From Candidatus Geocrenenecus dongiae (GTDB lineage Archaea > Thermoproteota > Nitrososphaeria_A > Caldarchaeales > Wolframiiraptoraceae): a stretch of DNA of 48,970 nt. The stretch is from contig JALNLN010000013.1 of the NCBI GenBank assembly GCA_023267855.1, forward strand, positions 1 through 48,970, written 5' to 3'. A program made the position numbers and the translations under genes. Shown here in pieces: positions 1-34,913 of the stretch. Position 1 is the stretch's first letter; every line of letters begins with the position of its first letter. The notes under the pieces are model-generated. The model ran no database searches and was not told where the DNA came from. It saw only the letters and a list, made by a program, of their open reading frames with translations.

Positions 1-90
1 GATGTTTGACTTATCCCAGACGTAGAACTCGTGGAATTCCTGGGCGATAATGTATTCAAGAACCCCTCGCATAAGTAGTTTATGTTTCAT
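1..90 (-). CDS. Partial ORF at left edge, function unknown
   Basis: An ATG at 88-90 on the minus strand opens a frame that stays open to the window edge (30 codons). It has an aromatic, acidic stretch (EFHEFYVWDKSNI). The gene is cut by the edge, no Shine-Dalgarno is obvious, and it is too short to place in a family. It follows another gene remnant by about 20 bases, so it may itself be debris. Confidence 0.25.
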   Translation of the reverse strand, partial: MKHKLLMRGVLEYIIAQEFHEFYVWDKSNI

Positions 91-108
91 TTTAAGATCC
101 CTGTCTTT

Positions 109-345
109 CTAGATGACGGGTGAGCCCGCCTCTGGATATATGTTATTAAATATATGAGGTCCAATCGAGGCTCCATTCCTGTATTTTGTTGCATAGAACT
201 TGGCGCGTTCCAATACATCTAGCGGGCTATCGAGTATCGGTTCTATCCCGCATCTCCGCTTAGCTATAAAGCCCTCTTAAACGACCCCTTAAAGCCCTCT
301 ATTGTCATCTCCTCGACGCTCGGGACATGTAGAAACCTCTACCTC
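109..345 (-). pseudogene. Decayed gene fragment of unknown family
   Basis: Minus-strand reading gives a plausible protein C-terminus containing PLDVLERAKFYATKYRNGAS and ending NIYPEAGSPVI before a TAG at 109-111. The upstream part continues only after a shift of frame, and a short motif (gagggcttta) occurs twice around the break, which looks like a small duplication that disrupted the gene. I do not recognise the family. This is what fills the roughly 350-base stretch before apbE. Confidence 0.3.
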
Positions 346-357
346 TAGCCGCATTTA

Positions 358-1299
358 TCATGTACACCCTGTGCACTCATAAGCCGCAAACTTACTCGTT
401 CTCAGAATCTTCCTGTCCGACATGATGAGCATAGCCTCTGCATTATCTAATTTTTCCACGAGATCTATGCCCTGTTTTGGATCCATAAGACACAGGCTAG
501 TTGCAAGGGCATCAGCAACTAGTGTCCTCTCGCATATTACAGTAGAACTGATGACTTGCTCAGATGCTAGTGGTCTCTTTGGGTTGACGATGTGGCTCAA
601 AATTCCTTGCGCTATTCTGCGTTCATAGCTCCCACTGGTTGCAACAGCACCGTCGTGAAGCTTTATGATCGTTATATTCTGTTCTTTATGAAACGGGTCT
701 CTTATTCCAATTCTCCAGGGTTCTTTGTCCGTCTTCCCACCAATAGTCCTGATATCTCCACCTGCATTGATTAGTGCGTTCCTAATTCCGCACTTTTTTA
801 AAGTCTCTGCCGCCAAATCTGCCGCATAACCTTTAGCTATAGCATTTAGAACGATCTTCATACCTTTTTTCAAGAACCTTATACGTCTCCCTTCTACCTT
901 CACAGACGAATAATCAACGAGCTCCAATATGCTTCTTAATCCCTCCTCAAATGACGTCCGATCTTTAAGAAAATTCTTATCAATGTATTCTATTAAGGGA
1001 GCCACCGTTATGTCGAAAATACCATCCGTTAACTTGCTTATCTTCTCTGCTTCTTTGATAATCCATATCAATTCCTCGGAAGCATTCTCTAAATAGCCTT
1101 GTCTGTTAAGTCTGCTAACCTCACTCTCTTCATTAAATACGCTCATCATAGCCTCAACTTTCTTGATTTCGTTGAATGCGTTATCCATTACTTCCTCAGA
1201 ATACTCTATATCTCTGGAAACGATCATAATCGTAACAGAGGTTCCCATTAAAATCTTCGACTTTTTTACAAGAAGGTGTTTTTCTTCTGATACCATCAT
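358..1299 (-). CDS. apbE: ApbE, FAD:protein FMN transferase
   Basis: ApbE moves FMN from FAD onto a Thr (or Ser) side chain of FMN-binding domains. Family signatures seen: MGTSVTI near residues 18-24, IAKGYAAD near 154-161, the metal-site region NAGGDIRTIGG near 178-188, SHIVNP near 235-240 and ADALATS near 262-268. The length of 313 residues is normal. I see no signal peptide or lipobox, although many ApbE proteins that act on exported targets have one, so how it reaches its target is unclear. The obvious target is the FMN domain encoded at 3785-5233, which has an intact acceptor motif. The gene lies downstream of a decayed and an intact fumarate-reductase-like gene on the same strand. The family call is secure; the partnership is inferred from the genes lying together. 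Confidence 0.92.
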   Translation of the reverse strand: MMVSEEKHLLVKKSKILMGTSVTIMIVSRDIEYSEEVMDNAFNEIKKVEAMMSVFNEESEVSRLNRQGYLENASEELIWIIKEAEKISKLTDGIFDITVAPLIEYIDKNFLKDRTSFEEGLRSILELVDYSSVKVEGRRIRFLKKGMKIVLNAIAKGYAADLAAETLKKCGIRNALINAGGDIRTIGGKTDKEPWRIGIRDPFHKEQNITIIKLHDGAVATSGSYERRIAQGILSHIVNPKRPLASEQVISSTVICERTLVADALATSLCLMDPKQGIDLVEKLDNAEAMLIMSDRKILRTSKFAAYECTGCT

Positions 1300-1342
1300 A
1301 AAGAATAAAGATTATGAGAGGTTTAAAAATAATATTCTTAAT

Positions 1343-1975
1343 CTAATGGTTCCTTAGTAGCTTCCTTTCCAGTTGTCCTACCGAATACTTAGAGTCTGTT
1401 ACTGCGAAGCTACCCGGTCTACACGCCCCATGAACACCGCTAGTTATTTTTCCAGTAGCATAAAGTTTCGGTATGAGCACACTGCTGTCATCTAGTACTT
1501 GTGCCTTAATATTGATTCCTGTACCGCCCATGGTATGACGTACGGCAGGCCATTGTGGTGCTGCATAAAATGGTGGCTTCTCAATCTTCGCTAATAATCT
1601 TGGCTCTCCAAAGTCCTCATATTTCCCCTCTTCTACGAACCTGTTATATCTTTTAACGGTTTCAGCAAGCCCTGCTGGATCCATGCCTGCCTTTATGGCT
1701 AACTCTTCGATTGTATTGCCTACTATGATTCTGCTCCTCTCTATGAACTCCAGCCTGATCTTTAGTTTTGGCGGGAACTCAACGCCGAGACCTATTAGCC
1801 ATCCAAAAACGTCACGAGACTTTATCGCAACTTTCTTAGCCAGCTCTACATAGTTCAGATACGTCTTAAAGTTAGCATGTCCTTGACAAATAACTCGACA
1901 CCATCCACTTCTTAATTGCATTAAATATTTGTGGCACTTATTTACACTTTTCGAAAAATCGGCATCGGTGTGCAA
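1343..1975 (-). pseudogene. Internally deleted fumarate-reductase-like flavoprotein
   Basis: The C-terminal two thirds aligns by eye with the intact neighbour at 2038-3642: HTMGGTGINIKAQVLDD matches HTMGGLHINSKAQVLDT, and the segments around GLAETVKRYNRFVEEG and YATGKITSGVHG also match. The N-terminal part resembles the neighbour's middle (FGWLIGLGVEF against IDFLVDIGVPF), then jumps about 200 residues. The FAD-binding N-terminus and the catalytic core are therefore missing. The last motif is also ruined: the family's RxGGNALxD is replaced by RPGSFAVTD. The frame is still open (210 codons), but the product could not bind FAD normally. It is most simply a duplicate of the neighbour that lost its middle. 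Confidence 0.75.
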
Positions 1976-2037
1976 TCATGTAACATTATGTAGACGTTTA
2001 AAAACTACAAAAAGTAAAAAATAATAAAGGTTTTTCT

Positions 2038-3642
2038 TCACATAGAAACTTCGCGGACGGCATTTCTACCGGCTATTCTTCCGAAAGCTATTATGTCGAG
2101 TAAGGCGTTTCCGCCGATCCTATTCGTTCCGTGGATGCCGCCAGTAATTTCTCCGGCTGCATAGAGGCCCGGTATGACTTTACCCTCTGTATCTAGTACT
2201 TGTGCCTTGCTGTTTATATGAAGACCGCCCATTGTATGGTGGAGCGAAGGTCTTCCTTTTATGGCATAGAAGGGCGGTGTATCTATTTTCAGCATTGGGT
2301 CACCTTTTCTCATAGACAAATCTCTTCTCTTGAACTCTGGGTCATGTCCTTCGTCAACGTATTTGTTCCAATTGTTTACGGTTTCTACCAAGTTATCTGG
2401 ATTTATTCCTGCTAGCACAGCAAGCTCTCTTATGGTATCGGCCTTAAAGGCCACGCCCCTTTTTAATTGATCAGCGATTATAGTTTCAGGATCCCCAAAT
2501 GCTTTAAAATTCTTTAATTGTTTATCATCTACGATTGCAAAAGCAAAACCTCCAGGTTGTGCTAAGACAGCATCTCTCCTTACGTCCCTCCTTTCCAGCT
2601 CTTCAACAAATCTTTTACCATCAGTGTTTACCATGATCCCGATGCCGAGCTCTGTTGCGGCTGCTATCGTAACTAGACTGCCCGTTTCGTAATCACACAT
2701 AGGCCACAACTGCACATAATCCATGCCCCTTATAGCGGCACCGACATCCATCGCCGCTATTAATACTTCACCAGTAGTTGTTCCCGGAACGTTTGTGGAC
2801 GGGAAACCGACAAACCTCGGAGCATGTCTCCTTATTAGTAACTCACTCTGGCAGAATCCACCGGCGGCTAATATCACAGCCTTCTTAGCCCTGATGTACT
2901 TGATCTTACCATCAGCAGTCTCAGCTTTTACACCAAGAACCCTACCGCTATTAGCTTCTTCTCTGATTATCTTAATAACCTTGTGTTCTAAGAGTACTTT
3001 AATGCCTCTTTTCTCAACTTGTTTCCTTAGCGCAGCATGTAACGCCGCTCCTCCGCCTATTACAGAATGCGTTCTCGGGACACTCTGTCCACCGGACATC
3101 GTTAGTGTGTCAGCAAAGGGTACACCAATATCAACCAAGAAATCAATAACTGATGGCGCATTTTCGACTAGAGTCCTTATAAGCTCTGGGTCACCCATGT
3201 AATCTCCGGATTTAAGTAAATCGTTATACTGCAATTCAAACGAATCCTTTATTCCTTGCTTTTCTTGTAATTTAAGCTTCGAAGACCATGCATTTATAAT
3301 TCCGCCAGAAACAGCAGTGTTACAAAGTCCAAGTTGTGGCATCTTTTCAATTATCAGCACGTTTGCACCTTCGTCATGGGCCGTTATCGCGGCAGCAAGA
3401 CCCGCACCACCGCCACCTACTATCACGACGTCAGCTTCTACATCCCATTTCTCAGGCAACCACGGCTTTACCTCTTCCACCTTAGTCTCAGTCTTAGTAG
3501 TAGTTACCGTCTTTTCTACTTCTTTTATTACCTCCCTCGGAAATGCCTGACTTCCAACAATACCTCCTACAATCAAACCGATAATGCCGGCAGCAATTGT
3601 TCCTGCAACAGTTCTTCTAGATACTTTCTTTTCTGCACTCAC
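2038..3642 (-). CDS. Tat-exported fumarate-reductase-like FAD protein
   Basis: Soluble flavocytochrome-c/fumarate-reductase superfamily (FrdA-like FAD subunit), about 534 residues. I start it at GTG 3642: the frame is open 15 codons further, but this start puts the twin-arginine SRRTVAG at residues 8-14, followed by a hydrophobic helix, a clear Tat signal. The dinucleotide-binding VGGGGAG lies near 75-81. Family catalytic positions appear intact: HTMGG near 469-473, ERRD in the middle, and the closing NRIGGNALLD near 507-516. No heme-binding CxxCH is present, so electrons must come from another protein; the divergent membrane cytochrome/FMN protein is the natural donor. Substrate is unknown; fumarate, urocanate or another activated alkene would fit the fold. 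A TATA-like box 26 bases upstream suggests a leaderless transcript. Confidence 0.85.
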   Translation of the reverse strand: MSAEKKVSRRTVAGTIAAGIIGLIVGGIVGSQAFPREVIKEVEKTVTTTKTETKVEEVKPWLPEKWDVEADVVIVGGGGAGLAAAITAHDEGANVLIIEKMPQLGLCNTAVSGGIINAWSSKLKLQEKQGIKDSFELQYNDLLKSGDYMGDPELIRTLVENAPSVIDFLVDIGVPFADTLTMSGGQSVPRTHSVIGGGAALHAALRKQVEKRGIKVLLEHKVIKIIREEANSGRVLGVKAETADGKIKYIRAKKAVILAAGGFCQSELLIRRHAPRFVGFPSTNVPGTTTGEVLIAAMDVGAAIRGMDYVQLWPMCDYETGSLVTIAAATELGIGIMVNTDGKRFVEELERRDVRRDAVLAQPGGFAFAIVDDKQLKNFKAFGDPETIIADQLKRGVAFKADTIRELAVLAGINPDNLVETVNNWNKYVDEGHDPEFKRRDLSMRKGDPMLKIDTPPFYAIKGRPSLHHTMGGLHINSKAQVLDTEGKVIPGLYAAGEITGGIHGTNRIGGNALLDIIAFGRIAGRNAVREVSM

Positions 3643-3657
3643 ATATACTATATATTT

Positions 3658-3695
3658 GTAACGATTATTTATGTATTTCTGTAACAATTATTTAT
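3658..3695. promoter_or_regulatory. Direct repeat over flavoprotein promoter
   Basis: GTAACGATTATTTAT at 3658-3672 and GTAACAATTATTTAT at 3681-3695 are 15-base direct repeats with one mismatch and a 23-base period. On the minus strand the first copy supplies ATAAATAAT, centred 26 bases before the GTG start at 3642, so it doubles as a probable TATA box. The second copy could be an operator half or a duplicated promoter. Confidence 0.5.
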
Positions 3696-3750
3696 AATGT
3701 CATACAAATATATACAAAAGTCACGTAAGTATATACAAAAAACAAAAAAC

Positions 3751-3760
3751 TAAAATATAA
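3751..3760 (+). promoter_or_regulatory. TATA-like box before the cytochrome b-FMN gene
   Basis: The sequence taaaatataa is centred about 29 bases before the ATG at 3785, leaving almost no room for a 5' leader. This fits an archaeal leaderless promoter facing away from the flavoprotein promoter in the same 142-base gap. Confidence 0.4.
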
Positions 3761-3784
3761 CAAAGTTGTTAGTCTACATCTAGA

Positions 3785-5233
3785 ATGAAAGAGGTAGAAT
3801 ATGTAAAAAGATGGTCAATTCTTGATAGGTTTACGCATTTACTAATATTGCTTGGTGTCGTAATTGGAGTGGTGTCTGGTATTCCGGAACTCCAACTTGA
3901 AATTCTAGGATACAATCTTGGAGATAACTTCCGTTGGATTACCGATGTGATAGGTGGAGAAAGTATCCGCCGTTTACTCCATAGATATGTTGTAACGGTA
4001 CTGATTGGGATTGCAATAGTTATACACACGCTGAGCTTCAGTCTCAGAAGCAAGAAGAGCAATATACTGTTTACTTATAAGGACTTAAAGGACCTTGTCT
4101 TATACTACAAGTTTAGGTTCCTAAAGGCTCCTGAACCTGAGCTCGGATTCCACATGCCTGGTGAAAAGCTACTCTATTGGATCGCCGCTATCTCATTGCC
4201 GATTCTAGGACTAACCGGCATTATGATGTGGACGAACTACTTACCTATTGAATACGAAGTCTTAAGACTTCTACATAGAGTGTTCTTCATCTTGCTTACA
4301 GTTTTTGTAGTAATCCATTTCATATTGAACTTAGTTCTGCGCGACCAGTGGCCTGCATTAAAGTCCATGTTCCTGACGGGCAAAGTGCCGAGTGAATGGG
4401 TGAGAAAACATCATCCAAAAACGTTTGAAGAAGAAAAGGTTGTTTGGATCGGAAGACGGAGAGTTATGAAAACACTTCTTACGGTAATTCCGGCCGTAGC
4501 TCTAGGTTACGTATTAAACGAATTGTTGAAACCACCGAGATATATAATTAGAAATATTTACGTTGAACCTTCAAAGGTTAAGTCAGGCGATCCGTTTACA
4601 GTACACGCCGAGATAGCAAACATAGGTTACAGGGAAGGAACATTTAATGTCCAACTTTTCATCGACGGTAACTTGGTAGACGAAAAGAGCATTACATTGT
4701 TAGATGGTGAGACCAAATTACTATCGTTCCAAGCAAAATTAAAGGAAATTGGCAAGCATGTCATAACTGTAGATAGTGTCTCAACTTCAATTGAGGTAAC
4801 GGAGGCACCTCCACCTATTGCGCCTGAACTCGCAGAAAGATTCAAGAAGTTGGTACCCGAAGCGTATGACTTTGTACCAATTATAAAAGAAGGAAAGATC
4901 GCTTACTATGAAATATATAATGCAATGGGAAACCTAATAGCCTACGGATTTTACACCAGAGCTTATGCTCCCACAGATAGGCTTCAGATAATTGGAATAG
5001 TTGACCTAGATTACAAGATAAAGTCTATAGACATAGATAAGATAGAGCCGGGAACTAGGTTGCATAATGAGATGATAATCGAACCAAGCTTTGAGGAAAG
5101 ATTCATAGGGCTAACTGTGGATGAGGTTGGATTATCTCCTGAGGGAAAAGTGGATGCTGTCAGTGGTGCAACGATCTCTTCAGCTGCAGTAGTTAATGCC
5201 ATTAAGAATGCGCTAAGTAGCATAACGTCTTAA
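3785..5233 (+). CDS. Cytochrome b / CARDB / covalent-FMN fusion protein
   Basis: A 482-residue membrane protein with three recognisable parts. Residues 1-220 resemble the formate-dehydrogenase gamma type cytochrome b: four hydrophobic helices with histidines at 18, 66, 164 and 178 (and 81), fitting two b hemes. Near 224-226 an RRR is followed by a hydrophobic helix, like an internal Tat-type export segment. Residues about 256-340 form a CARDB-like beta domain (YVEPSKVKSGDPFTVHAEIA). The C-terminus is an FMN_bind domain whose DAVSGATISS motif matches the ApbE acceptor consensus, with Thr463 as the predicted FMN attachment site. Inferred role: quinol to heme b to FMN to the exported FAD reductase encoded divergently. 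The cytochrome and FMN domains are usually on separate proteins, so the fusion is uncommon. Assignment of parts is firm; the electron route is inference. Confidence 0.88.
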   Translation: MKEVEYVKRWSILDRFTHLLILLGVVIGVVSGIPELQLEILGYNLGDNFRWITDVIGGESIRRLLHRYVVTVLIGIAIVIHTLSFSLRSKKSNILFTYKDLKDLVLYYKFRFLKAPEPELGFHMPGEKLLYWIAAISLPILGLTGIMMWTNYLPIEYEVLRLLHRVFFILLTVFVVIHFILNLVLRDQWPALKSMFLTGKVPSEWVRKHHPKTFEEEKVVWIGRRRVMKTLLTVIPAVALGYVLNELLKPPRYIIRNIYVEPSKVKSGDPFTVHAEIANIGYREGTFNVQLFIDGNLVDEKSITLLDGETKLLSFQAKLKEIGKHVITVDSVSTSIEVTEAPPPIAPELAERFKKLVPEAYDFVPIIKEGKIAYYEIYNAMGNLIAYGFYTRAYAPTDRLQIIGIVDLDYKIKSIDIDKIEPGTRLHNEMIIEPSFEERFIGLTVDEVGLSPEGKVDAVSGATISSAAVVNAIKNALSSITS

Positions 5234-8576: not shown

Positions 8577-10421
8577 ATGTATGGTTATGGTAAGATTGCG
8601 GAAATAGATCTCTCAGAAGATCGTATTCAGATTAGAAACATAGATGATTATATGGCTTATGAGTGGATTGGTGGAAGAGGGTGGACATCATACATAATCT
8701 TCAAAGAACTCGACAAGATAAAAGATGCGTTAGATCCAAGCAATGTTTTGGTGGTTGCTGCAGGTCCACTAACAGGAGTATTCATAAGTGGTGGTAAGAC
8801 TTCCTTCGGAGCTTTAAGTCCTCAAACAGGAATTTACGGTGATAGTAATGTAGGAGGGTTCATAGGATACCGTTTAAGAAAGACGGGTATAGACTGCTTG
8901 GTAATTAGAGGGAGAGCGCAGGTCCCTTCATATCTTTACGTTGAAGATGGGAGAGTTGAGATTATAGAAGCTCCAGAATTATGGGGTTTAAAGTCGAGTG
9001 AGGTAGATGGAAAGCTTAGAGAAAAGTATGGTGAAGAATGTTCTATTGCTAGTATAGGGGTTGCTGGAGAAAAGCTAGTGTCTTATGCATGTATTAATGT
9101 TGATTGGAATTTGAGAAAGTATAGGCATGGTCAAGCTGGTAGGACTGGCATGGGTGCTGTAATGGGTTCTAAGAATCTTAAAGCTATAGTTGTCAAGGGC
9201 ACTGGAGAAGTAAAGATAGCTGATCCAGATAGGCTTAGAGAAGTTTCTAGAAAATTACAGAAACAAGTTCTCGAAAGCCCCACCTACGATCTCTGGAGGA
9301 GGCAGGGAACTATGCTTACAATAGAATGGTCAAATAATGCTGAAGCTCTTCCAGTCTACAATTTCCAGAAAACTAGATACGAGTATGCAGATGATATAAG
9401 TGGATATGCTTTAGAGAAGATTAAAATCTATAGTCGCCCATGTTCAAACTGTATAGTTCCATGTGAACACGTAGTACCCTTCAGAATCATGGGTAGAGAA
9501 GGGGCTATAGGTGTAGAGTATGAAACAGCTGCGATGCTTGGATCCAATATAGGTCTCAGAAACCTAGAAGAAATAGCTTATGCTAATTATCTTTGCGATG
9601 ATTATGGAATAGATACCATAACAGCGGGATCTGTAATAGCATTTGTAATGGAGTGTTTCCAGAGAGGAATACTTTCAGAGAGAGACGTAGGATTCAAGGT
9701 GAATTGGGGAGATATAGAAGCTGTTGCTAAGCTAATTGAGATGATAGCTAAGAGAGAAGGATTTGGAGAATACATGGCTCAAGGTGTTAAGAAGCTTGCT
9801 GAAAAAATTGGTAAAGGTTCTGAGAGGTTTGCTATGCATGTGAAAGGACTCGAGATAAGTGCTTATGATCATAGAGCTGCCCCAGCAATGGCCTTAAGCT
9901 ACGCTACTTGTGATATAGGAGCACACCATAATCGTTCATGGGCCATAACATACGATCTACAGGTCGGACGATATAGTTATGGAGAAGACAAGGTGGATAG
10001 AGTCATATACCTACAACACATAAGACCATTATTCGATATGCTTGGAGTGTGTAGACTATACTGGGTTGAACTAGGCATAGATCCGAATTTTTATGCTGAA
10101 GCATATTCCGCCGTAACGGGTAGAGAAGTAACATTAGAAGAATTATTGAAGAAGAGTGAACGTGTATGGAATCTGAATAGAGTTATGGCGATAATCAGAA
10201 AGAATATTGGTATGAAGGATGATATGCTTCCTGAACGTGATTTCGTAGACGCTGTACCAGAAGGCTCAACTAAAGGTTCAGTTCTCTCAAGAGAGAAGTT
10301 CATAGAAATGTTGAAGACGTATTATAGAAAACGTGGATGGGATGAGAATGGGTGGCCGACAAAAGAGAAACTAATAGAACTAGGTTTAGAAGAAGCTGCA
10401 AAGAAGCTTTACAGAACTTAG
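8577..10421 (+). CDS. aor: Aldehyde:ferredoxin oxidoreductase (tungsten family), copy 1
   Basis: AOR-family enzymes oxidise aldehydes to acids with a tungsten bis-pterin cofactor and one [4Fe-4S] cluster, reducing ferredoxin in the cytoplasm. The 614-residue length is typical. Cluster cysteines are visible at 289, 292, 296 (CSNCIVPC) and 492. The N-terminal GGRGWTSYIIF and GPLTGVFISGG are family hallmarks. The usual DxRG pterin-binding motif reads DHRA here (431-434), and the motif following it, GAHH, also differs from copy 2 (GACH), so this is a divergent subfamily whose substrate cannot be named. It is monocistronic, with its own palindrome-bearing promoter, and is followed by a convergent gene after 23 bases. 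Confidence 0.92.
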   Translation: MYGYGKIAEIDLSEDRIQIRNIDDYMAYEWIGGRGWTSYIIFKELDKIKDALDPSNVLVVAAGPLTGVFISGGKTSFGALSPQTGIYGDSNVGGFIGYRLRKTGIDCLVIRGRAQVPSYLYVEDGRVEIIEAPELWGLKSSEVDGKLREKYGEECSIASIGVAGEKLVSYACINVDWNLRKYRHGQAGRTGMGAVMGSKNLKAIVVKGTGEVKIADPDRLREVSRKLQKQVLESPTYDLWRRQGTMLTIEWSNNAEALPVYNFQKTRYEYADDISGYALEKIKIYSRPCSNCIVPCEHVVPFRIMGREGAIGVEYETAAMLGSNIGLRNLEEIAYANYLCDDYGIDTITAGSVIAFVMECFQRGILSERDVGFKVNWGDIEAVAKLIEMIAKREGFGEYMAQGVKKLAEKIGKGSERFAMHVKGLEISAYDHRAAPAMALSYATCDIGAHHNRSWAITYDLQVGRYSYGEDKVDRVIYLQHIRPLFDMLGVCRLYWVELGIDPNFYAEAYSAVTGREVTLEELLKKSERVWNLNRVMAIIRKNIGMKDDMLPERDFVDAVPEGSTKGSVLSREKFIEMLKTYYRKRGWDENGWPTKEKLIELGLEEAAKKLYRT

Positions 10422-23907: not shown

Positions 23908-25740
23908 TTAGATTATTCCTAGTTGTTTGAGACGTTCTTGCGGTACTGTTCCATCCATATTCCATCCATGTTTCTTATAGTACTCATCTATAAGTTTGTT
24001 GAAGGTTGCTTCATCTATTACATGTCCTTTCGATGGTCCACTTGGTGATGGTTCTGTCATAAACCTCTTTGGAAGTCTATCATCTTTACGTGTGAATCCA
24101 TGAAGTTGGTTGAAGTATCTTTCCTGCGTCCATATTCTCTCACCTATATTTAATACATCGTCTGATGTTATTTCCCATCCAGTATATGCTGAGAATAATG
24201 CTGCGTAATCTTCAGGTCCGAGAGCAAAAGTGCTGAACTTACACATATCTAGACTGTCGGTGAATGCGAATAATCTCTCCAATAAGTGTACTAATTCTAC
24301 TTTATTCTCTAATGTTAGTGGATCGGTTTTGTATGGTATTCCTAGAATTTCCGATGCAGGTGTGTAAGCTCTTAGATGACATGCACCTCTATTTGAGACT
24401 GAGTAGCCGATCACGAATCCTTTCAAACCTCTTGGATCATATGCAGGTATACTCATTCCTTTAACAGACATAGATATATCTGGGTCCCCGAAGATCTGTG
24501 CTGCTTTGGCCCCACCTTCCGCTAAAGTATTCCCTAGATCGTCTTCTCTATATGAAAGCCTCCTTGTAAGTTCTATGAACTTGTCTATATCACCCCATTT
24601 TACAGTCTCCTTTATTAATCCTCTTTCAGATGCTTCTGCTGCTACTGCTAATGTGTTTCCAAGCTCGATTGTATCTAATCCATAAAGATTCGCTAAATAG
24701 TTTAGGTATGAAACTGCTTCTATATGTCCTACACCTATCATTGCTCCTAGAGCCCATATTGATTCGTATTCTGGTCCTTCTGATTTATGTTTAAACTTTC
24801 CATCAAAGACCTGGACTTCTCTTTTACATGCTACTGGACATGCATGACATGTAGGTGTATCTCTAAGTATGGTTCCTCTAAGATTCTCTCCAGAGATATA
24901 GTATGCGAACTCGAACATTGTGTCTTTTGCGTTACGTGTAGGCCATGCACCTATCTCATTCACTATGTTTACGAGTACAGATGTTCCGTAAATTGATAAG
25001 CCACCTTTCTTAGGACCTGTTACAGGACTCTCACTAATCTTCTTTAATGCTTCTTGTCTAGCTTTCTCGAATGCTTGTGGATTTGCTGGTTTAGGCATAT
25101 CTTTCTCCTCACCAATTATGACTAAACCTTTCACTTTCTTAGAACCCATCACTGCTCCCATTCCAGCTCTTCCTGAAGCTCTACCCATAGAACGTTTACC
25201 GTAATGCATTATACATGCAAATCTAACTTTATTTTCTCCGGCTGGACCTATACCATAGAATTGAGCTTCATCTCCATACTTCTCCTTAATCATATTGTAT
25301 ACTTCTTCTGTTGTCTTTCCCCATAGTGTTTCAGCATCTTCTATGGTTACGGTTTTATTCTTTACGATAAGATATACTGGTTTATCGCTTGCACCTGTAA
25401 GGATTATTCCATCGAATCCAGCCCATTTTAATGTTGCTCCAGCCCATCCACCTGCATGGCTATCTCCAAAAGCTCCTGTAAGAGGTGATCTAGATACAGC
25501 ACATATTCTACCACTCATAGGTGTAAGTGTGCCTGTAAGAGGGCCGACCATTATTGCGAGAATATTTTCAGGTGATAGAGGATCCTTACCCACAGCATGT
25601 TTAAGCAGTATCCTTCCACCAAGCCCTCTACCACCAATAAACTTTCTTGCTTCTTCTTCATCAACTTCCTGGTACTCTACTTTTCTGTCAGTTAAGTTAA
25701 CCCAAGCTAAACAATTAGCATATCCTCCCGCTTTAACCAT
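23908..25740 (-). CDS. aor: Aldehyde:ferredoxin oxidoreductase (tungsten family), copy 2
   Basis: Same family as the gene at 8577-10421. Cluster cysteines at 298, 301, 305 (CHACPVAC) and 500. GGRGLGGRILLKH and GPLTGTLTPMSG are hallmarks, and the pterin-binding DPRG (435-438) is intact, unlike copy 1. The protein (610 residues) is closer to classical AOR than copy 1. It is downstream of the MoeA-PBP gene on the same strand; a 36-base inverted repeat fills most of the 66-base gap. Substrate is not known, although broad aldehyde specificity is usual in this branch. Confidence 0.93.
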   Translation of the reverse strand: MVKAGGYANCLAWVNLTDRKVEYQEVDEEEARKFIGGRGLGGRILLKHAVGKDPLSPENILAIMVGPLTGTLTPMSGRICAVSRSPLTGAFGDSHAGGWAGATLKWAGFDGIILTGASDKPVYLIVKNKTVTIEDAETLWGKTTEEVYNMIKEKYGDEAQFYGIGPAGENKVRFACIMHYGKRSMGRASGRAGMGAVMGSKKVKGLVIIGEEKDMPKPANPQAFEKARQEALKKISESPVTGPKKGGLSIYGTSVLVNIVNEIGAWPTRNAKDTMFEFAYYISGENLRGTILRDTPTCHACPVACKREVQVFDGKFKHKSEGPEYESIWALGAMIGVGHIEAVSYLNYLANLYGLDTIELGNTLAVAAEASERGLIKETVKWGDIDKFIELTRRLSYREDDLGNTLAEGGAKAAQIFGDPDISMSVKGMSIPAYDPRGLKGFVIGYSVSNRGACHLRAYTPASEILGIPYKTDPLTLENKVELVHLLERLFAFTDSLDMCKFSTFALGPEDYAALFSAYTGWEITSDDVLNIGERIWTQERYFNQLHGFTRKDDRLPKRFMTEPSPSGPSKGHVIDEATFNKLIDEYYKKHGWNMDGTVPQERLKQLGII

Positions 25741-25806: not shown

Positions 25807-27750
25807 TCAACCGAAGATCTTCTTTCCCATTTCTGGGTGGGGTCTATAGAAAGGTAGTTCTCTAAGTTTTTCTTTAAAAGTCTGTGAATTAAATGTGTTT
25901 AATATTTTCTTTACTGATTCTTTTTCTAATCTATCTTTTCTTACCGCTATATCGAATATTTCTTCTGTTAGTGGTATGAAGTCTAGTCCATAGATTTTCG
26001 CTACGTATCCTAATGCTACTCCTACATCTGCTCTCTTCTGAGCTATAGCTACTGCTACAGCATTATGCGTCTTTACTTCATACGTATATCCTCTTATCTT
26101 CTTCTCAGGCTCAGTTACACCCATCTTGCTTAACATCGTGTCTATGTATGTTCTAATGCCAGATCCTTTTACACGATTTACAAATACGACGTCATCTCTA
26201 AGAAGATCTTCTAGACTACTTATTTTCTTGGGGTTCCCTTTCTCAACTATTAAGCCTATTGTTCTAATGTATCCTCTATACAATTCTACTTCTTTCTCTA
26301 GTCCAAGTTTTTTAGGTATGTGGAGATTGTATGTCATGGTTTCTGGATCGAGTAGATGTGTTCCAGTTACGTCTGCCTCCCCTCTCTTTAAAGCTCTCCA
26401 CCCGGCTAGTGATCCAACATTAATTATCTTGAAGTTTCTTATATCTGCTTGATTGAGTAAGAGTTCAAGTGCTGGACAATTGCTTCCAATTATAGTTAGT
26501 TCTGGGAATTTTATCTTTTCGAAGAGCTTGACTTCTACTTGCTCATCTTCTTCAACATACTGTCTTTCTTCTTCTATATCTATGAAACCATCTACTAGTG
26601 ATAATGTTGTAGCAGCACCAGAATCTGAAATTACTGGATACGCTATTAAACCTGTTTTCGATGGAACTATATGTACAGGTATTAGATGTCTCTTACCTTT
26701 TCCAGTATCTATTCTGAAACCTAGTCTAGCTTTTACAGTATCTTCTACTAGTTCTTCACATCCCATAATCTTCAATATTATAGGTTTAACGAGAACTTGG
26801 AATATCATCATGGTTGAGAGAGGGAAACCTGGTAGACCTATAAACAGCTTTCCATCTTTTCCTACAGCTATTACAGTTGGTTTACCAGGTTTAACTCTTA
26901 ATCCATGTACTAAGACTTCACCGAGTTTTGCAAAAACTCTGTAAACCACATCTCCAAATCCTGCAGAAGTACTTCCAGAAGTAATGATTATATTGTATTT
27001 TTCCAGTATCTCGCTTATCTCCCGTTCAATTGTATCGTAATCATCTGGGAGGATCTTGATGAAATCTGGGTTTAATCCAAGAGCTTTCAACATAGATATT
27101 ATCGAGTACCGATTGACATCATAGATCTTTCCCGGGGGTAGGTGTTGAGACAAGTCGGCGAGTTCATCTCCAATAGAGAATACAGCAACACTAGGCTTAG
27201 AGTAAACTTTAACCTTGTTTACGCCTACAGCTGCTAATGCTGCTAGTTCTCTAAATCCTATTTTTCTACCTTTCTTTATTACTAGATCTCCTATAGCTGC
27301 ATCTGATCCTGTTTGAGCAATATTCTCTCCAGGTGCAACCGCCTTATAGATTAAAACGTGTTCGTCTTCTCTTTTTGTGTATTCCACCATTACTACAGCA
27401 TTAGCACCTCTAGGTATACATGCACCAGTAGATACTTCTACACATGTGCCGTTCTTTACTTCTATCTCAGATACTGCTCCTATCTTTACGGTTCCAGCTA
27501 GCTTTAGCTTAACAGGGTTTGCCTCATCCGCAATATAAGTATCTTCAGCGATTACAGCATAACCATCAACGGTACTCCGATCAAATGGTGGAGAATCTAC
27601 TACAGCGTATACATCTTCTGCGAGAATCCTACCGTATGCTTCATCAATGGAAACATATTCAACACCTATTGGTTTTAAGCCACCAAGCTTCTCTTCTAAG
27701 ATCTCTAATGCTTCTTCTATAGAGACGACTTTATGGAATACTAATGCCAC
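25807..27750 (-). CDS. moeA: MoeA molybdenum/tungsten insertase fused to PBP-like domain
   Basis: Residues 1-405 are MoeA, which inserts molybdate or tungstate into adenylated molybdopterin: FDRSTVDGYAV near 54-64, SGSTSAGFGD near 256-265, PGKPTVIA near 286-293 and GLPGFPLS. Residues about 415-647 form a periplasmic-binding-protein-like fold (IIGSNCPALELLL, then NVGSLAGWRALKRGEADVTG) without a signal peptide, so it acts in the cytoplasm. This two-domain form is known in archaea; the PBP part may bind an oxyanion, a pterin or another ligand. The AOR gene downstream suggests that it serves tungsten enzymes. Confidence 0.92.
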   Translation of the reverse strand: MALVFHKVVSIEEALEILEEKLGGLKPIGVEYVSIDEAYGRILAEDVYAVVDSPPFDRSTVDGYAVIAEDTYIADEANPVKLKLAGTVKIGAVSEIEVKNGTCVEVSTGACIPRGANAVVMVEYTKREDEHVLIYKAVAPGENIAQTGSDAAIGDLVIKKGRKIGFRELAALAAVGVNKVKVYSKPSVAVFSIGDELADLSQHLPPGKIYDVNRYSIISMLKALGLNPDFIKILPDDYDTIEREISEILEKYNIIITSGSTSAGFGDVVYRVFAKLGEVLVHGLRVKPGKPTVIAVGKDGKLFIGLPGFPLSTMMIFQVLVKPIILKIMGCEELVEDTVKARLGFRIDTGKGKRHLIPVHIVPSKTGLIAYPVISDSGAATTLSLVDGFIDIEEERQYVEEDEQVEVKLFEKIKFPELTIIGSNCPALELLLNQADIRNFKIINVGSLAGWRALKRGEADVTGTHLLDPETMTYNLHIPKKLGLEKEVELYRGYIRTIGLIVEKGNPKKISSLEDLLRDDVVFVNRVKGSGIRTYIDTMLSKMGVTEPEKKIRGYTYEVKTHNAVAVAIAQKRADVGVALGYVAKIYGLDFIPLTEEIFDIAVRKDRLEKESVKKILNTFNSQTFKEKLRELPFYRPHPEMGKKIFG

Positions 27751-28564: not shown

Positions 28565-29503
28565 CTAACTATTGAGCTGTAAAGATCTCCTGAAGAACCT
28601 ATAGATAAAAAAGAAGTCATCAGAATATATAGGGTTAAGGGAGAATTTTTTGTAGGTTCTCAGAGATGTAAAGGAGAGTGATAATGCATTTGTTGGGCAG
28701 ACTTCGATACACTCAAAACACTTAATGCAGTCTATGTCCCTTATGCTGTCTTTCCCCATCTTAATGTATTTAGATATTATTGGTATAGATGTTCTGCAGA
28801 CTTCATCACATCTCCCACAGAATGTGCATAGTTTATCATTTATCTTTAGTGTTAAGAGTGAAAGCTTGTTAAATGTTCCGTAAAGTATTCCGGTTATGCA
28901 TATCCGTCTACACCAAAATCTTGGATAAACCGTAGATACAATAATGTCTAGAATGAACGTTAAGAGTATTACTATTATTGCATATTCTATCTTAGCGGGG
29001 ATAGCGATAGTTGGAGAGAATATTTGACTGAGCAAGTTTATGATTACCGAGAACATGGTGATAACGTTTAGGTAGTTTGTGTAAATTGGAATGTACGCAA
29101 AAATGCTCATTCCAAAGATTACAACAAACATTGGTATATAGAATTTTAGAGAAAAGTATACGATTCTACTGTGGCTTGAACTTCTAGATCTTCTTAGGTT
29201 CCTAAAGTATGAGTAGAAGATATCCAGTGGGCATATCCATCCACAGAAAACTCTACCTAGAACAAGATACAGGACTAGGGTGGTTAGAAAAGCTATTGTT
29301 GGAAAAACGATTGGCTGTTTGTAGGCTAGGAGTTTCTCTATAGCTGCTGTAGGATCCACAAACCCTATTATGTTTAATACTTTTGATGATACTAGTGATC
29401 CAACTATTATTGGGATATTATATATGATGAGTTGATGCTGCATCATGAATAGCAAGACTGTTGCGACTTGTAGTAATCTTCGCAGTAGATTGAAAGGTTT
29501 CAC
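28565..29503 (-). CDS. NapH/MauN-like membrane ferredoxin protein
   Basis: A 312-residue polytopic protein with about five helices. A cytoplasmic-loop motif CGWICPLDI near 86-94 and two C-terminal [4Fe-4S] motifs (CTFCGRCDEVC and CIKCFECIEVCP) define the NapH family, which passes electrons from quinol towards exported molybdoenzymes or helps mature them. The start overlaps the end of the TorD-like gene by four bases (ATGA), showing translational coupling. It would give this operon a second membrane electron entry besides the NrfD subunit. Confidence 0.88.
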   Translation of the reverse strand: MKPFNLLRRLLQVATVLLFMMQHQLIIYNIPIIVGSLVSSKVLNIIGFVDPTAAIEKLLAYKQPIVFPTIAFLTTLVLYLVLGRVFCGWICPLDIFYSYFRNLRRSRSSSHSRIVYFSLKFYIPMFVVIFGMSIFAYIPIYTNYLNVITMFSVIINLLSQIFSPTIAIPAKIEYAIIVILLTFILDIIVSTVYPRFWCRRICITGILYGTFNKLSLLTLKINDKLCTFCGRCDEVCRTSIPIISKYIKMGKDSIRDIDCIKCFECIEVCPTNALSLSFTSLRTYKKFSLNPIYSDDFFFIYRFFRRSLQLNS

Positions 29504-30132
29504 TTCTTCACTTCTCCTTTAATGAATTCTTCAATCTCCATTACTAATTCGTAATCTTCTTTTACGTAGTTGTCTGTTAAGCTCGCTAAAATTCTGTAAA
29601 AACGCTGAACACTCTTGTTTTCTATCTTCCAGCATACGTTGGGTAGCCATGTTAAGAGATGATTCTCTAGGAATCTCCTCTGTCTTGTTAGCAAACGTTT
29701 TACTTCTCTGAGATCCCCATTCCTCAGAGCTTCAAGAGACATTATACACATCACTAGCATGTATTCCAGTTCTACTCCAATATGGTCTTCTAAGACACTA
29801 TTATTTTGAAGTATTATTCCATCATCAAGCATCCAATCTCTAACTTCAAGCCACATTTTGCCTTTGAGGGTTCTCTCACCTCTATTCACAGATTCATAAG
29901 GAGTTACTAGTGGTACCGGAGTACCTATGAAAAGTCTTACATATTCAGCCCAGACATCTGTTGGGTAATCTTTGTCTCTACTCAACTTCTCTACTTCTTT
30001 TAAGAGTTCAGCGATGAGTTCACGGATATTCTTCTCTGGATAATTTTGAGATAAAGTTCTTAGGACTTCATTATTGAGAATGTCGTGTAGGAATTTTTCA
30101 GAAGGTTCTTCAAGAAAAAGGGTCATAAACAT
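29500..30132 (-). CDS. TorD/NarJ-type redox enzyme maturation chaperone
   Basis: A 210-residue, all-alpha protein. The family signature is visible as YVRLFIGTPVPLVTPYESV near 66-84, then EDHIGVELEYMLVM near 115-128 and LENHLLTWLP. Such chaperones bind the Tat signal of a molybdoenzyme and hold it back from export until the cofactor is inserted. It sits directly downstream of the catalytic subunit (23-base gap) and overlaps the NapH-like gene. Confidence 0.9.
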   Translation of the reverse strand: MFMTLFLEEPSEKFLHDILNNEVLRTLSQNYPEKNIRELIAELLKEVEKLSRDKDYPTDVWAEYVRLFIGTPVPLVTPYESVNRGERTLKGKMWLEVRDWMLDDGIILQNNSVLEDHIGVELEYMLVMCIMSLEALRNGDLREVKRLLTRQRRFLENHLLTWLPNVCWKIENKSVQRFYRILASLTDNYVKEDYELVMEIEEFIKGEVKK

Positions 30133-30155
30133 AAAAAATTATGAGGAGATTTGGT

Positions 30156-33077
30156 CTATATTATTTTCCACTCTCTTCTATAGTATTCTGCTATAATCCC
30201 TCGCGTCTCTTCTGGGGTTGCTTTTCTCACTTTTACTATCATGTCTGCGAAGACTGGTTGACCCATGATAGGCGACATGATGTAGTCTAATAATTCTGAA
30301 TGATTTGGCGTATAAGTTCTATGGGCATATGTTCCTCCAAGTCCTGGAGAGAATCTTCCTCCAGTTGCAAACCCCATCCTTATTACTCCAGGTCTAACAG
30401 TCTCGCATACGTAGGCTTTTGATAAGACTTTTCTTCCGAGCGGGTTTTCTATGATTATTAGGTCTCCCATCTTTATTCCTAATCTCTCTGCATCGGCAGA
30501 ATTTATCTGGACTGTTCCTATACACCACAGGTTTTTTGGTATAGTTTTCTCTACGTGGATTATCTCCATTCCTCCTGGGGATGTTTCAGCCATCTTTAGT
30601 GAGAAGCTTTCATTCATCGGCATCCATAATCCTTCAGCGGGTGTTTGTGCCAACCACTCACACATATGGGTCCCGCTCATCGCATGATGTACCCTCGCAG
30701 AGATCAATTGGAATGGATATTCATCTCTATACTTAACGTACTCTGGATTCGTATAGTAGTTCCAAACAGTCTCAAACCAGTAGAATGAGGTAGGCAATTC
30801 TTTCCATCCTAGTTTTCTCCAACTTGGTGGGACTACTCCGCTTTCTATTACAAGCTTGTTTATCCCTTCATACGTATAGAAGTGTAGCTCGAGCTTCTTC
30901 GTTTTCGTCTTAATAATTCCGCCCGGCTTCCAGTCTTGCTTCTCTTCATCCCATTCTCTGTACCTATACCAGCTCATAGGCCAGAATGCTCCGCCATAAT
31001 GTTTTCTCAGATACTCAACTGTTACATACTCGCCTGTTACAGTCTTCTTTTCATCGTCTATCTTTACTCGTCCTTCTTCGAGTGATTCAGGTGTACCGAT
31101 AAGGGTGTATCCCTCCGGTAGGTTAGGATAGGGTAGAGGTCTACCAACGTTAGGTCTGCCTGGAGCGACTCGGAGCATCTCATTTACGAAGTCTTCTTCT
31201 GTCTTATATTTCTCCCAAAATTCTTCTGGCATTATATCGCTCTTTCCAAATTCTTTCATTTCATATTCGTAGATCTTCTTAGCGAGCATGTTCATAATGT
31301 CGGTAGGTTTTTTACTCTCGAATAGTGGTTCTATTACTGCGTCTCGTAGGAATATTATCGGATGGGTCGGATATATGTCTGAGAGGCTCATCCTCTCCAG
31401 GTAGCTTGCTTCAGGCAGAATGTAGTCTGCATATAACCCGGATTCTAGTAGGATTGTATCAATGTAAACGTATAGTTCAAGTTTGTATTCTCCATCGGGT
31501 TTCTTTGCCGTGAATGCCTCAATAAACTTGTATACCGGTCCAGCAGTTATCAACGTATTACCAGTTCTCAGAATATATGCAGCCAGTGGGTACTTGTGCC
31601 CTTTGAACGGTCCATACTTTAACTCTATTCCCTCCATGATCATTCTCGGCAGGTCTCCTACTACATCATCCCATGCAGCGGGCCAGTCCCCATATCTAGC
31701 ATAGTGGAGTTTCTCTTGTTCTGCCTCCACCTCGACACCGTTTATAATCCTCTTTACTTTTCTTGTGTTGAACCATCTTCCAGTCGCTGTCCCTCCTTTA
31801 CTCGACTTAACGATTTCTGTATCTATTACTCCTCCACGTGCCTCGAAGTTCCCCGTGATTATGTTTAATACGCATCCGAGAATTGATGCTACATATCCAT
31901 TGTAGTGATGACCTGGCGATTGCATACCCCATATGAGTGCGGCCGGCTTAGTTATACCGAAAACATGTGCTAGGTACTCAATCTTCTCTTTTGGAAGACC
32001 TGTTCTCGCTTCAGCCCACTCCAAGGTAAAATACTTAAAACCATTTACAGGATCTACTTTATCCCACCAACTCTTGAAGTTCTCTAAGAATTCCTCCCAT
32101 CCTTCAACATATTTTAGTACACTATAATCGATGTAATTTCTTGTAGGATCGGCTGGATTATTATGTTCAAGGATGTATCTGAGCATAGCAGCAAACAAAT
32201 CGCCATCCGTCCCTGGTCTAATCGGGAACCATTCATCGGCTAGTGATGCCGTATTGCTGAAGCCTGGATCTACAACGAATACTTTGCATCCATTTTCTTT
32301 CTTTGCTCTAACGGTTCCAACAGTCTCCCAAACGATTCTAGTAGCTGTGAATGGGTTCCAGCCAACGTATATTATCAGTTTCGCATCGTGTTTATCATAC
32401 CATTTAAGACTGCCGTCAGGCATTCTTATAGGTACAGGTCGCAGAATGTCTGGCTCCCATCTCTTTCCATTTACTATAAGCTTCGGCCCGTGTCTCCTGG
32501 GAGTATCACATATCGCTCCATGCTCTACAGCGTTTGGTGAACCGAAGGCAAAAGTCAACCTCCAGTATTGGTCTCTATCTGTTACATCTCCAGTATCGGT
32601 TAATAGTGCCTCTGGACCATATTTCTTCTTGATCTCAACGAGTTTCCGAGCTATCTCATCTATCGCCTGCTCCCAAGAGATCCTAACGAATTTTCCTTCA
32701 CCACGTTCACCCACCCTCTTCAATGGATACTTTATTCTATATGGACTATAAACTAGCTGTAATCCAGCTATGGCTTTAGCGCAGGCTGCGCCTCTACTAT
32801 TGTAGGTTAAATGAGGGTTACCGTAGACTCTTACCACTCTACCATCTTTGACCCACACTTCAAGAGCGCACTCGGCTGCACACATTACACATGCCGTATA
32901 TTTCACTTGTACATCTCTCTTCTTTATCCTCTGCTTGACCGCTCTAAGGTTCTCAGCAGGTATTTGAACTAGATGCATTTTTTCATAGATTGCTGGTCCT
33001 AGGGTTGCACCAGCAATTACGGCCAGAGATGCCAGAGATCCTAACTCTATAAACTTTCTTCTACTTAACTTACTCAT
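30156..33077 (-). CDS. Tat-exported molybdopterin oxidoreductase catalytic subunit
   Basis: DMSO-reductase-superfamily catalytic (A) subunit, 973 residues. Tat signal LSRRKFIELGSLA at 4-16. An [4Fe-4S] cluster is held by Cys63, 66, 70 and 99 (CVMCAAEC, then a later C). The probable metal ligand is Cys190 in HGAICDTPRRHG. FVRISWEQAIDEIARKL and PGTDGDLFAAMLR are superfamily hallmarks. With B and NrfD-type C subunits it belongs with the polysulfide, thiosulfate, tetrathionate and arsenate reductases. The length exceeds Psr/Phs (about 750) and is nearer TtrA or ArrA. The substrate cannot be chosen from sequence alone. Mo and W are both possible. Confidence 0.92.
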   Translation of the reverse strand: MSKLSRRKFIELGSLASLAVIAGATLGPAIYEKMHLVQIPAENLRAVKQRIKKRDVQVKYTACVMCAAECALEVWVKDGRVVRVYGNPHLTYNSRGAACAKAIAGLQLVYSPYRIKYPLKRVGERGEGKFVRISWEQAIDEIARKLVEIKKKYGPEALLTDTGDVTDRDQYWRLTFAFGSPNAVEHGAICDTPRRHGPKLIVNGKRWEPDILRPVPIRMPDGSLKWYDKHDAKLIIYVGWNPFTATRIVWETVGTVRAKKENGCKVFVVDPGFSNTASLADEWFPIRPGTDGDLFAAMLRYILEHNNPADPTRNYIDYSVLKYVEGWEEFLENFKSWWDKVDPVNGFKYFTLEWAEARTGLPKEKIEYLAHVFGITKPAALIWGMQSPGHHYNGYVASILGCVLNIITGNFEARGGVIDTEIVKSSKGGTATGRWFNTRKVKRIINGVEVEAEQEKLHYARYGDWPAAWDDVVGDLPRMIMEGIELKYGPFKGHKYPLAAYILRTGNTLITAGPVYKFIEAFTAKKPDGEYKLELYVYIDTILLESGLYADYILPEASYLERMSLSDIYPTHPIIFLRDAVIEPLFESKKPTDIMNMLAKKIYEYEMKEFGKSDIMPEEFWEKYKTEEDFVNEMLRVAPGRPNVGRPLPYPNLPEGYTLIGTPESLEEGRVKIDDEKKTVTGEYVTVEYLRKHYGGAFWPMSWYRYREWDEEKQDWKPGGIIKTKTKKLELHFYTYEGINKLVIESGVVPPSWRKLGWKELPTSFYWFETVWNYYTNPEYVKYRDEYPFQLISARVHHAMSGTHMCEWLAQTPAEGLWMPMNESFSLKMAETSPGGMEIIHVEKTIPKNLWCIGTVQINSADAERLGIKMGDLIIIENPLGRKVLSKAYVCETVRPGVIRMGFATGGRFSPGLGGTYAHRTYTPNHSELLDYIMSPIMGQPVFADMIVKVRKATPEETRGIIAEYYRREWKII

Positions 33078-33083
33078 GTACCC

Positions 33084-34100
33084 TCACCTCTTATACTTAA
33101 ACTCTGGGATGGGGAAGATAGTTAAGCCAAGCACATACAAGAATAAAGATAATGATATTACTCCAACGGTGGCTAAAATCTCTGTCTGTGTTGGCATAAA
33201 ACTGAGGAGCGAGTAAAGTTGTGGCGAGACTTCTACAATCTGCTGTCCGCCGATTATAAGATTCCACTTATAAGAGTAGACTCCAGCTAGAATTAGAATA
33301 GATGTAGCTATCGACCCGATTGTCGAGGTCCTCACCTTTTCTGTCACCAACATGAAGATCGGGAGTAATCCTCCTAGAATGTATTGCACGCCTATGAAGC
33401 TTAGTGCTAAGTAGCCGAATAACAAGATTGAAAGCTTAGTCCATATTAATGTTTCCGCATATGCAGTTATTGAAAGCTCGATCAGTGTAAAGACGAGATA
33501 TATTACTAGAAAGTAGAGAGTAAGCTTCCCTAAAGAATTCAGAGTATCTTTTCGTAATCCATCTCTTCCCAAAGTTATGATTGCTAGTAGAGTTACTAGA
33601 GCTGCTCCAGCCGTTATCCCTGAAAGTATGGCTGTTATGGGGGTTATGGTGCTACTCCAGACTTCTCTAGCTTTCATGCCACCAATTATAAATCCGAAGT
33701 ATCCGCCGAATATTAATGATATCACTAACCCTATCGCCGAGATTCCAGTGGATGCTCTCTGGAACCATACCGCTTCCCTATATCTACTATGTACGATTAT
33801 TTGAGTAGTTAATAGAATTACAAAGATCATCCAAATGTATCCGAATAAGGCCATAACTGAACTCGGCATTGGATAGAGGTAGATATTGGGAGCTCTTAAT
33901 GGAGAGCCGAGCTCTAGGACCAATGGTATAGGCGAAGCTAGCAGGAACCCCCATGCAGTCACCATTGAGAAAGTCGAGATACCTTCAAGATTTCTCACCT
34001 TGAAGAGTATTGGAGCAATTGATATAATATATGAGCCTAGCACTAAGCCTGTGATGAAAGAGTAGAGTACTATCATCGGTCCCCAGATTATATTTGTCAT
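33084..34100 (-). CDS. NrfD/PsrC-type membrane subunit
   Basis: A 338-residue protein with nine or ten hydrophobic helices and no heme-binding pattern, as expected for NrfD-family quinol-binding anchors. VTAWGFLLASPIPLVLELGS near 47-66 and PNIYLYPMPSSVMALFGYIW match the conserved second and third helices. It would exchange electrons between quinones and the FeS subunit. The start overlaps the stop of the FeS subunit gene by four bases, and the stop is six bases from the catalytic subunit gene. Confidence 0.9.
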   Translation of the reverse strand: MTNIIWGPMIVLYSFITGLVLGSYIISIAPILFKVRNLEGISTFSMVTAWGFLLASPIPLVLELGSPLRAPNIYLYPMPSSVMALFGYIWMIFVILLTTQIIVHSRYREAVWFQRASTGISAIGLVISLIFGGYFGFIIGGMKAREVWSSTITPITAILSGITAGAALVTLLAIITLGRDGLRKDTLNSLGKLTLYFLVIYLVFTLIELSITAYAETLIWTKLSILLFGYLALSFIGVQYILGGLLPIFMLVTEKVRTSTIGSIATSILILAGVYSYKWNLIIGGQQIVEVSPQLYSLLSFMPTQTEILATVGVISLSLFLYVLGLTIFPIPEFKYKR

Positions 34101-34780: not shown

Positions 34781-34840
34781 ATTTCATCACTTTACTTTTA
34801 CATATTTCGTTAGTTCTAGTTTCGTAGACTTTATTAAAAC

Positions 34841-34885
34841 TTTTTTAAATTAACCTTCAATTGTTTTGGTTGTAATTAAACAATT
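34841..34885 (-). promoter_or_regulatory. Promoter and inverted repeat upstream of the BCA operon
   Basis: On the minus strand a TATA-like ATTTAAAAAAG (34841-34851) would start a transcript with a leader of about 40 bases. Directly upstream lie AATTGTTT (34859-34866) and AAACAATT (34878-34885), perfect 8-base arms with an 11-base spacer. This is where an activator of the response regulator type would bind. Confidence 0.5.
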
Positions 34886-34913
34886 TTTTACTTGCTTTTT
34901 AATATGATTAATC

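Follow-up and report, generated by a model that had tools for sequence, protein, structure and literature searches.

Three genes of a proposed flavin-based redox system

We analyzed a stretch of 48,970 nucleotides (hereafter the window) that forms the start of contig JALNLN010000013.1 in the 1.44 Mb, 98% complete genome of Candidatus Geocrenenecus dongiae, an archaeon of the Caldarchaeales (Aigarchaeota). Positions 358-5233 hold three intact genes, which encode ApbE, a flavin adenine dinucleotide (FAD) reductase and a divergently transcribed membrane flavocytochrome with a domain that binds flavin mononucleotide (FMN) (Table 1). An earlier reading based on the letters of the DNA (the sequence-only reading) had listed ApbE, an FAD reductase lacking its own heme domain and exported by twin-arginine translocation (Tat), and a cytochrome b carrying an FMN domain, and all of these parts are found here. 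Our analysis suggests that the trio is inherited together and encodes a flavin-wired respiratory enzyme on the outer cell face of this hot-spring archaeon. To the earlier reading it adds two decayed genes (1343-1975 and 1-354), the lack of a signal peptide in ApbE, and a twin-arginine motif ahead of the fifth transmembrane helix (TM5) of the flavocytochrome.

Table 1. Coordinates of the three genes, their motifs and the decayed genes beside them (TM, transmembrane helix).
Feature	Position in window	Strand	Evidence or state
PEPCK-like gene remnant	1..354	-	frameshifted, stop-interrupted, internally deleted, truncated by contig end
ApbE, FAD:protein FMN transferase	358..1299	-	PF02424, 250 bits, E 3.4e-74; predicted cytoplasmic
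Decayed second flavin reductase, C-terminal half only	1343..1975	-	without FAD-binding GxGxxG; active-site loop altered
Tat-exported FAD reductase, flavocytochrome c / urocanate reductase fold	2038..3687	-	PF00890, 273 bits; TIGR01813, 415 bits
Tat signal and anchor of the reductase, SAEKKVSRRTVAGTIAAGIIGLIVGGIVGSQAFP	3538..3639	-	read from sequence
Membrane flavocytochrome: FdnI-like cytochrome b (4 TM), TM5, CARDB spacer, FMN_bind	3785..5233	+	Pfam, alignments, model
Twin-arginine motif RRRVMK directly ahead of TM5, TLLTVIPAVALGYVLNELLK	4454..4531	+	RRRxxK invariant in four homologues
Flavinylation motif D457-A-V-S-G-A-T463	5153..5173	+	exact match to D-x-x-[S/T]-G-A-[S/T]

Architecture of the membrane flavocytochrome

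The flavocytochrome matches Ni_hydr_CYTB (55 bits), CARDB (30 bits) and FMN_bind (PF04205; 36.7 bits against a cut-off of 22), all above the Pfam cut-offs. The closest solved structure to its cytochrome domain is FdnI (1kqf), and the four heme-ligand histidines of a two-heme, FdnI-like cytochrome b are present across four helices: His18, His66, His164 and His178, invariant in four homologues and nearly invariant in ten. In addition, the cytochrome shows a sub-threshold match (25.3 versus 26.7 bits) to DUF4405, a known flavinylation-associated cytochrome family (PMC11334425). The AlphaFold model helped to place the boundaries of helices and domains; it agrees with five helices plus a beta sandwich and becomes weak beyond residue 440. 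A charge tally finds the N-terminus and loops 2 and 4 rich in lysine and arginine, which therefore places the N-terminus inside and the C-terminal FMN domain outside the cell. The flavinylation consensus was taken from PMC12052999, and Thr463, which the sequence-only reading had proposed as the FMN site, is exactly the threonine of SGAT and thus the predicted acceptor.

Among known systems, the MsrQ-FMN_bind, PepSY and DUF4405 cytochromes (PMC8238504, PMC11334425) resemble this protein in that a membrane b-type cytochrome feeds an outer covalent-FMN domain and an apbE gene is present; MsrQ-FMN_bind is likewise a single polypeptide. The flavocytochrome of the window differs from them in its FdnI/cytochrome b561 type, its fifth, twin-arginine helix, its CARDB spacer, the signal-less ApbE that accompanies it and its archaeal host. 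The best NCBIfam match of the FMN domain is the Methanosarcina RnfG (NF041840, 72 bits, under its cut-off), which belongs to the Rnf complex and is not fused to a cytochrome, whereas the domain described here is.

Predicted flavinylation in the cytoplasm and export by Tat

The PF02424 match to the window ApbE covers 265 of 266 positions. Among solved structures it is closest in sequence to Listeria FmnB (7esa), and residues S222, H236 and D263 align with Ser257, His273 and Asp301 of that protein, a Ser-His-Asp catalytic triad known from Vibrio ApbE as well as from FmnB (PMC12052999). It is the sole ApbE of its genome, and every other carrier also has a single copy. No export signal was found in any of the six ApbE proteins of the family when their N-termini and in-frame upstream sequences were examined: the window protein has 17 residues ahead of the conserved MGT and four further in-frame residues upstream, and across all six, MGT is preceded by 10-17 residues, while the in-frame extension upstream is non-hydrophobic and no longer than 14 residues. 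We therefore predict a cytoplasmic ApbE, as a signal peptide would not fit into any of these proteins; the possibility that the start was mis-called and ApbE is exported after all was rejected because the in-frame upstream sequence is short and non-hydrophobic. ApbE proteins without a signal peptide are known elsewhere, so its absence does not exclude family membership. The cytoplasmic ApbE of Klebsiella and the trypanosomatid flavin transferases (PMC12052999) are likewise free of signal peptides and act in the cytoplasm; their targets remain intracellular, whereas the sole target in the genome studied here is predicted to be exported. In plasmid records, ApbE matches were bacterial only and below 34% identity among the matches listed.

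Of the six residues in the motif ahead of TM5, the four homologues share only RRR and K without exception, within an otherwise variable stretch. TM5 has the lowest hydrophobicity of all transmembrane helices in each of these homologues and is followed by positive charges, and the genome encodes TatA and TatC. The five-helix dual Sec/Tat class described by Tooke et al. (PMC5449189) is marked by an even number of transmembrane helices, a twin arginine that immediately precedes a final helix of low hydrophobicity, and an outer cofactor domain, and the flavocytochrome agrees with the class in these features. As in the Sco3746-type proteins of that study, there are four heme-type helices, a twin arginine before a weak TM5 and an external cofactor domain. 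The Sco3746-type cofactor domains are of the molybdenum, Fe-S or Rieske kind, whereas that of the window is a predicted flavinylated FMN_bind domain, and the paper makes no mention of flavin or FMN. A literature search combining FMN-binding domain and Tat pathway returned nothing, and one combining Tat signal and ApbE returned as its only case an ApbE homologue that itself passes through Tat. Furthermore, a cytochrome-less FMN_bind protein of another genome of the family, G008, begins with SSRRNFLK, a canonical Tat signal, in a genome whose ApbE also lacks a signal.

Because ApbE is signal-less and the only copy, because RRRxxK precedes a weak TM5 and because the G008 protein bears a Tat signal, we consider it likely that ApbE flavinylates the C-terminal domain of the polytopic cytochrome in the cytoplasm and that Tat would then export the finished flavodomain. 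Bacterial ApbE acts extracellularly and requires exported FAD, while Tat substrates receive their cofactors inside (PMC9973259). Flavinylation might instead occur externally as in bacteria, with ApbE leaving the cell by another route or the domain loaded after Sec transport, and with RRRxxK as a mere positive-inside signal. Most studied ApbE proteins are indeed exported (PMC12052999), arginine and lysine commonly precede outgoing helices, and ApbE can attach the flavin in vitro to apo-NqrC that has already folded. We nevertheless regard external flavinylation as unlikely, given that none of the six ApbE proteins could accommodate a signal peptide, that conservation of the stretch is confined to RRR and K, that the independent G008 protein carries a canonical Tat signal and that TM5 is weakly hydrophobic.

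The FAD reductase and its predicted substrate

The score of the reductase for TIGR01813 (flavocytochrome c; Table 1) compares with a cut-off of 285 bits, and its best solved relative is the urocanate reductase UrdA (6t85, E 5.5e-87). Its likely true start is the GTG at 3640-3642, its Tat motif reads KVSRRTVAG, and domain searches found neither a heme nor an FMN domain in the protein. UrdA of Shewanella and the flavocytochrome c3 fumarate reductases share its FAD domain and catalytic residues but carry their FMN or heme domains in the same chain, whereas here the FMN carrier is on the membrane partner.

Residues R367, H483 and R523 correspond to R411, H520 and R560 of UrdA, which are carboxylate and proton-donor contacts conserved across the family (PMC7921117). 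This set suggests an active site of reductase type, predicted to act on an enoate-like acid, and agrees with the alkene-type acceptor proposed in the sequence-only reading. Its more specific candidates, fumarate and urocanate, were rejected because of the active-site residues. UrdA Tyr373, Asp388 and Glu177 are replaced by Trp328, Ala343 and Ile (roles of Asp388 and Tyr373: PMC7921117), and Trp328 also takes the place of the substrate-contacting histidine of fumarate reductases, which aligns with Tyr373. As these replacements affect the substrate-specific residues, fumarate and urocanate are unlikely acceptors, and neither a carboxylate nor an imidazole is likely at the far end of the substrate.

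The twin arginine and a GSQ(A/V)FP motif are retained in reductases elsewhere at only about 33% identity. A near-constant Tat leader (RR...GGIxGSQ(A/V)FP plus a Thr-rich linker) occurs in diverged flavoenzymes and Fe-S proteins of this family at loci L022-L025, L064, L065, L071 and L098, and may be a sorting or anchoring module.

Occurrence, linkage and selection

We surveyed 398 Thermoproteota genomes, including the 22 of the family, counting strong matches as ApbE. FMN_bind was present in five genomes and true ApbE in six, with all five FMN_bind genomes shared and every carrier within the one family. The hypergeometric probability of this co-occurrence is 7e-11, or 2e-4 within the family, values that are not corrected for kinship. 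In the sixth ApbE genome (G013), the reductase and ApbE genes adjoin on a contig of 5.5 kb whose end falls within the reductase gene. The genes for ApbE, a Tat flavoenzyme and the cytochrome-FMN fusion adjoin in all four fusion genomes (that of the window, G010, G002 and G003), so the sequence-only reading withstands its own proviso that the three genes must not always be apart in homologues. ApbE lies downstream of the reductase in the window and in G010; in G002 and G003 it is convergent to the cytochrome gene and overlaps its end.

The earlier view of a fixed trio in which each part needs the others is not supported for the flavoenzyme. G002 and G003 each encode two Tat flavoenzymes beside the conserved cytochrome and ApbE, with 28-34% identity to the window enzyme and without its catalytic motifs. 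The constant core consists of ApbE and the cytochrome-FMN protein, with a flavoenzyme that is exchanged between genomes. Such variability, together with a G008 FMN protein whose gene is instead found among those for Fe-S, CCG-domain and aldehyde ferredoxin oxidoreductase proteins, would be expected if the cytochrome-FMN protein were a general electron outlet (to metals or small molecules, for example) with the reductase as one of several clients or an unrelated neighbor. We consider such an outlet very unlikely, since a Tat flavoenzyme directly adjoins every fusion gene and, in the window, the reductase is kept under selection while other neighbors are not. The G008 arrangement (L025:8873-16221), with a free Tat-type FMN_bind protein and ApbE beside CCG-domain, ferredoxin and AOR genes, seems to be another way in which this archaeal family employs covalent FMN.

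Purifying selection acts on the trio, with dN/dS values against G010 of 0.15 for the cytochrome, 0.08 for the reductase and 0.24 for ApbE, while the PEPCK-like gene and the half-reductase decay. The intact counterpart of the former, with 601 amino acids, adjoins ApbE in the Terraquivivens genome G010 (tblastn of L022:13062-14867 onto window 1-400), and the remnant retains a 78.8% DNA match at window 39-354. The open reading frame of the half-reductase is 48% identical to residues 417-531 of the intact enzyme and is absent at the corresponding place in G010; it was rejected as a working second reductase because its FAD-binding half is missing.

The membrane protein also occurs in the relatives Candidatus Terraquivivens tengchongensis (94% identity), Aigarchaeota archaeon SKYB24 (60%) and Candidatus Geocrenenecus huangii (56%). 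The trio as a whole is 88-94% identical to that of G010, which belongs to another genus, and the cytochrome 56-60% to those of its own genus. Other genes of the contig show the opposite affinity, with identities to the own genus of 72-75% for LeuRS, 87-92% for S11 and 84-86% for SOD, against 62%, 83% and 53% to G010. As the trio is closer to G010 and its contig neighbors are closer to their own genus, recent horizontal transfer is probably the simplest reading. A false join of the trio to the contig end, near 5.2-6.0 kb, would produce a similar pattern: the trio occupies the first 5.2 kb at 88-94% identity to another genus, and the adjacent S11 (5972) and SOD (7790) genes are clearly of the own genus. 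Such an artefact is highly improbable, however, because the DNA of the trio differs by 10% from the G010 copy and is accompanied by its own decayed genes, and because the same kind of trio is internal to contigs of two genomes of the same genus; the anatomy and mechanism would hold regardless.

Proposed electron source, direction and mechanism

Cytochrome bd, a quinol oxidase, is encoded in 6 of the 22 family genomes, with close relatives counted separately, including all four fusion genomes. This lends indirect support to the quinol dependence proposed in the sequence-only reading. The futalosine menaquinone pathway, considered as proof of a quinone, yielded no MqnA/D gene. In G010, the only cytochrome bd carrier among the sampled genomes of its genus, the cytochrome bd genes lie directly upstream of the flavocytochrome gene (L022:5965-8567). 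This adjacency, and the absence of cytochrome bd from the sampled congeners, suggest that the two moved together.

Building on the parts, linkage, conservation and signals that are read directly from the DNA, we infer the following circuit, its direction and its substrate. Signal-less ApbE would place FMN on Thr463 in the cytoplasm, helices 1-4 would enter the membrane through Sec, and the C-terminal part, folded and carrying its flavin, would be handed on to the Tat translocase through the twin-arginine motif before helix 5. On this reading Tat would export both the FMN domain and the reductase as flavin-loaded proteins, which would make FAD export unnecessary. Electrons would run from quinol to the two b hemes of the membrane protein, on to the covalent FMN of the outer domain and from there to FAD in the exported reductase, which would reduce a monocarboxylic, enoate-type acid rather than fumarate or urocanate. 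The circuit of the sequence-only reading is plausible in this light, and a plug-in respiratory module of this kind, with internal flavinylation, Tat export and outward electron flow to an enoate reductase, is on balance the reading we favor.

Electron flow could also be reversed, with the flavoenzyme oxidizing an external substrate so that electrons reach quinone by way of FAD, FMN and heme in turn, in the manner of formate dehydrogenase. FdnI, the closest structure of the cytochrome domain, belongs to such an enzyme; relatives of this domain in the order Caldarchaeales sit with Tat-exported molybdopterin oxidoreductases, the flavoenzymes swapped in elsewhere also match ketosteroid dehydrogenases, and the direction is in principle reversible (Meheust et al., PMC8238504). 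The window enzyme nevertheless retains all of the residues with which fumarate and urocanate reductases bind carboxylate and deliver protons (R367, H483, R523), and characterized extracytosolic members combining this set with covalent FMN act as reductases (PMC8238504), so that we judge the reverse circuit quite unlikely.

Several observations weigh against a quinol-dependent, Tat-exported reductase system. No quinone biosynthesis gene was identified, and the direction of electron flow cannot be read from the sequence, even if the active site would favor reduction. The TM5 motif has arginine at an x position and no phenylalanine, making it an imperfect Tat consensus. The FMN domain is the weak part of the AlphaFold model (pTM 0.47), and a fold search matched the CARDB part only. 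The HxxNP histidine is missing from the G008 ApbE in the alignment, and the trio is located at a contig end.

Other genes of the window

Further downstream, positions 28565-38222 hold a molybdopterin oxidoreductase cluster with a 973-residue catalytic subunit, an Fe-S protein, NrfD, a Nar-delta-like chaperone and a Fer4_5 membrane protein, adjoined by genes for a response regulator, a sensor kinase and a phosphonate-type binding protein; it is probably a regulated respiratory or oxyanion enzyme. The window also encodes two tungsten enzymes of the aldehyde ferredoxin oxidoreductase type (8577-10421 and 23908-25740) and two MoeA-type proteins (25807-27750 and 39187-40491). A tRNA-like match (Rfam, 31.6 bits) at 48888-48970 is truncated by the right window end.

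Implications for archaeal flavin wiring

The most interesting and most testable part of this reading is flavinylation in the cytoplasm before Tat export, the reverse of the order known from bacteria. If true, extracytosolic flavinylation would be achieved without FAD export, and the dual Sec/Tat membrane proteins would gain covalent FMN as a new class of cofactor. In the main survey of such systems, 63 of 238 archaeal genomes were left once genes lacking a predicted signal had been dropped (PMC8238504); because signal-less genes were removed, flavin wiring in archaea could be overlooked. Finally, with different flavoenzymes swapped onto it while cytochrome and ApbE stay the same, this core may be a general socket for reductases working outside the cell.

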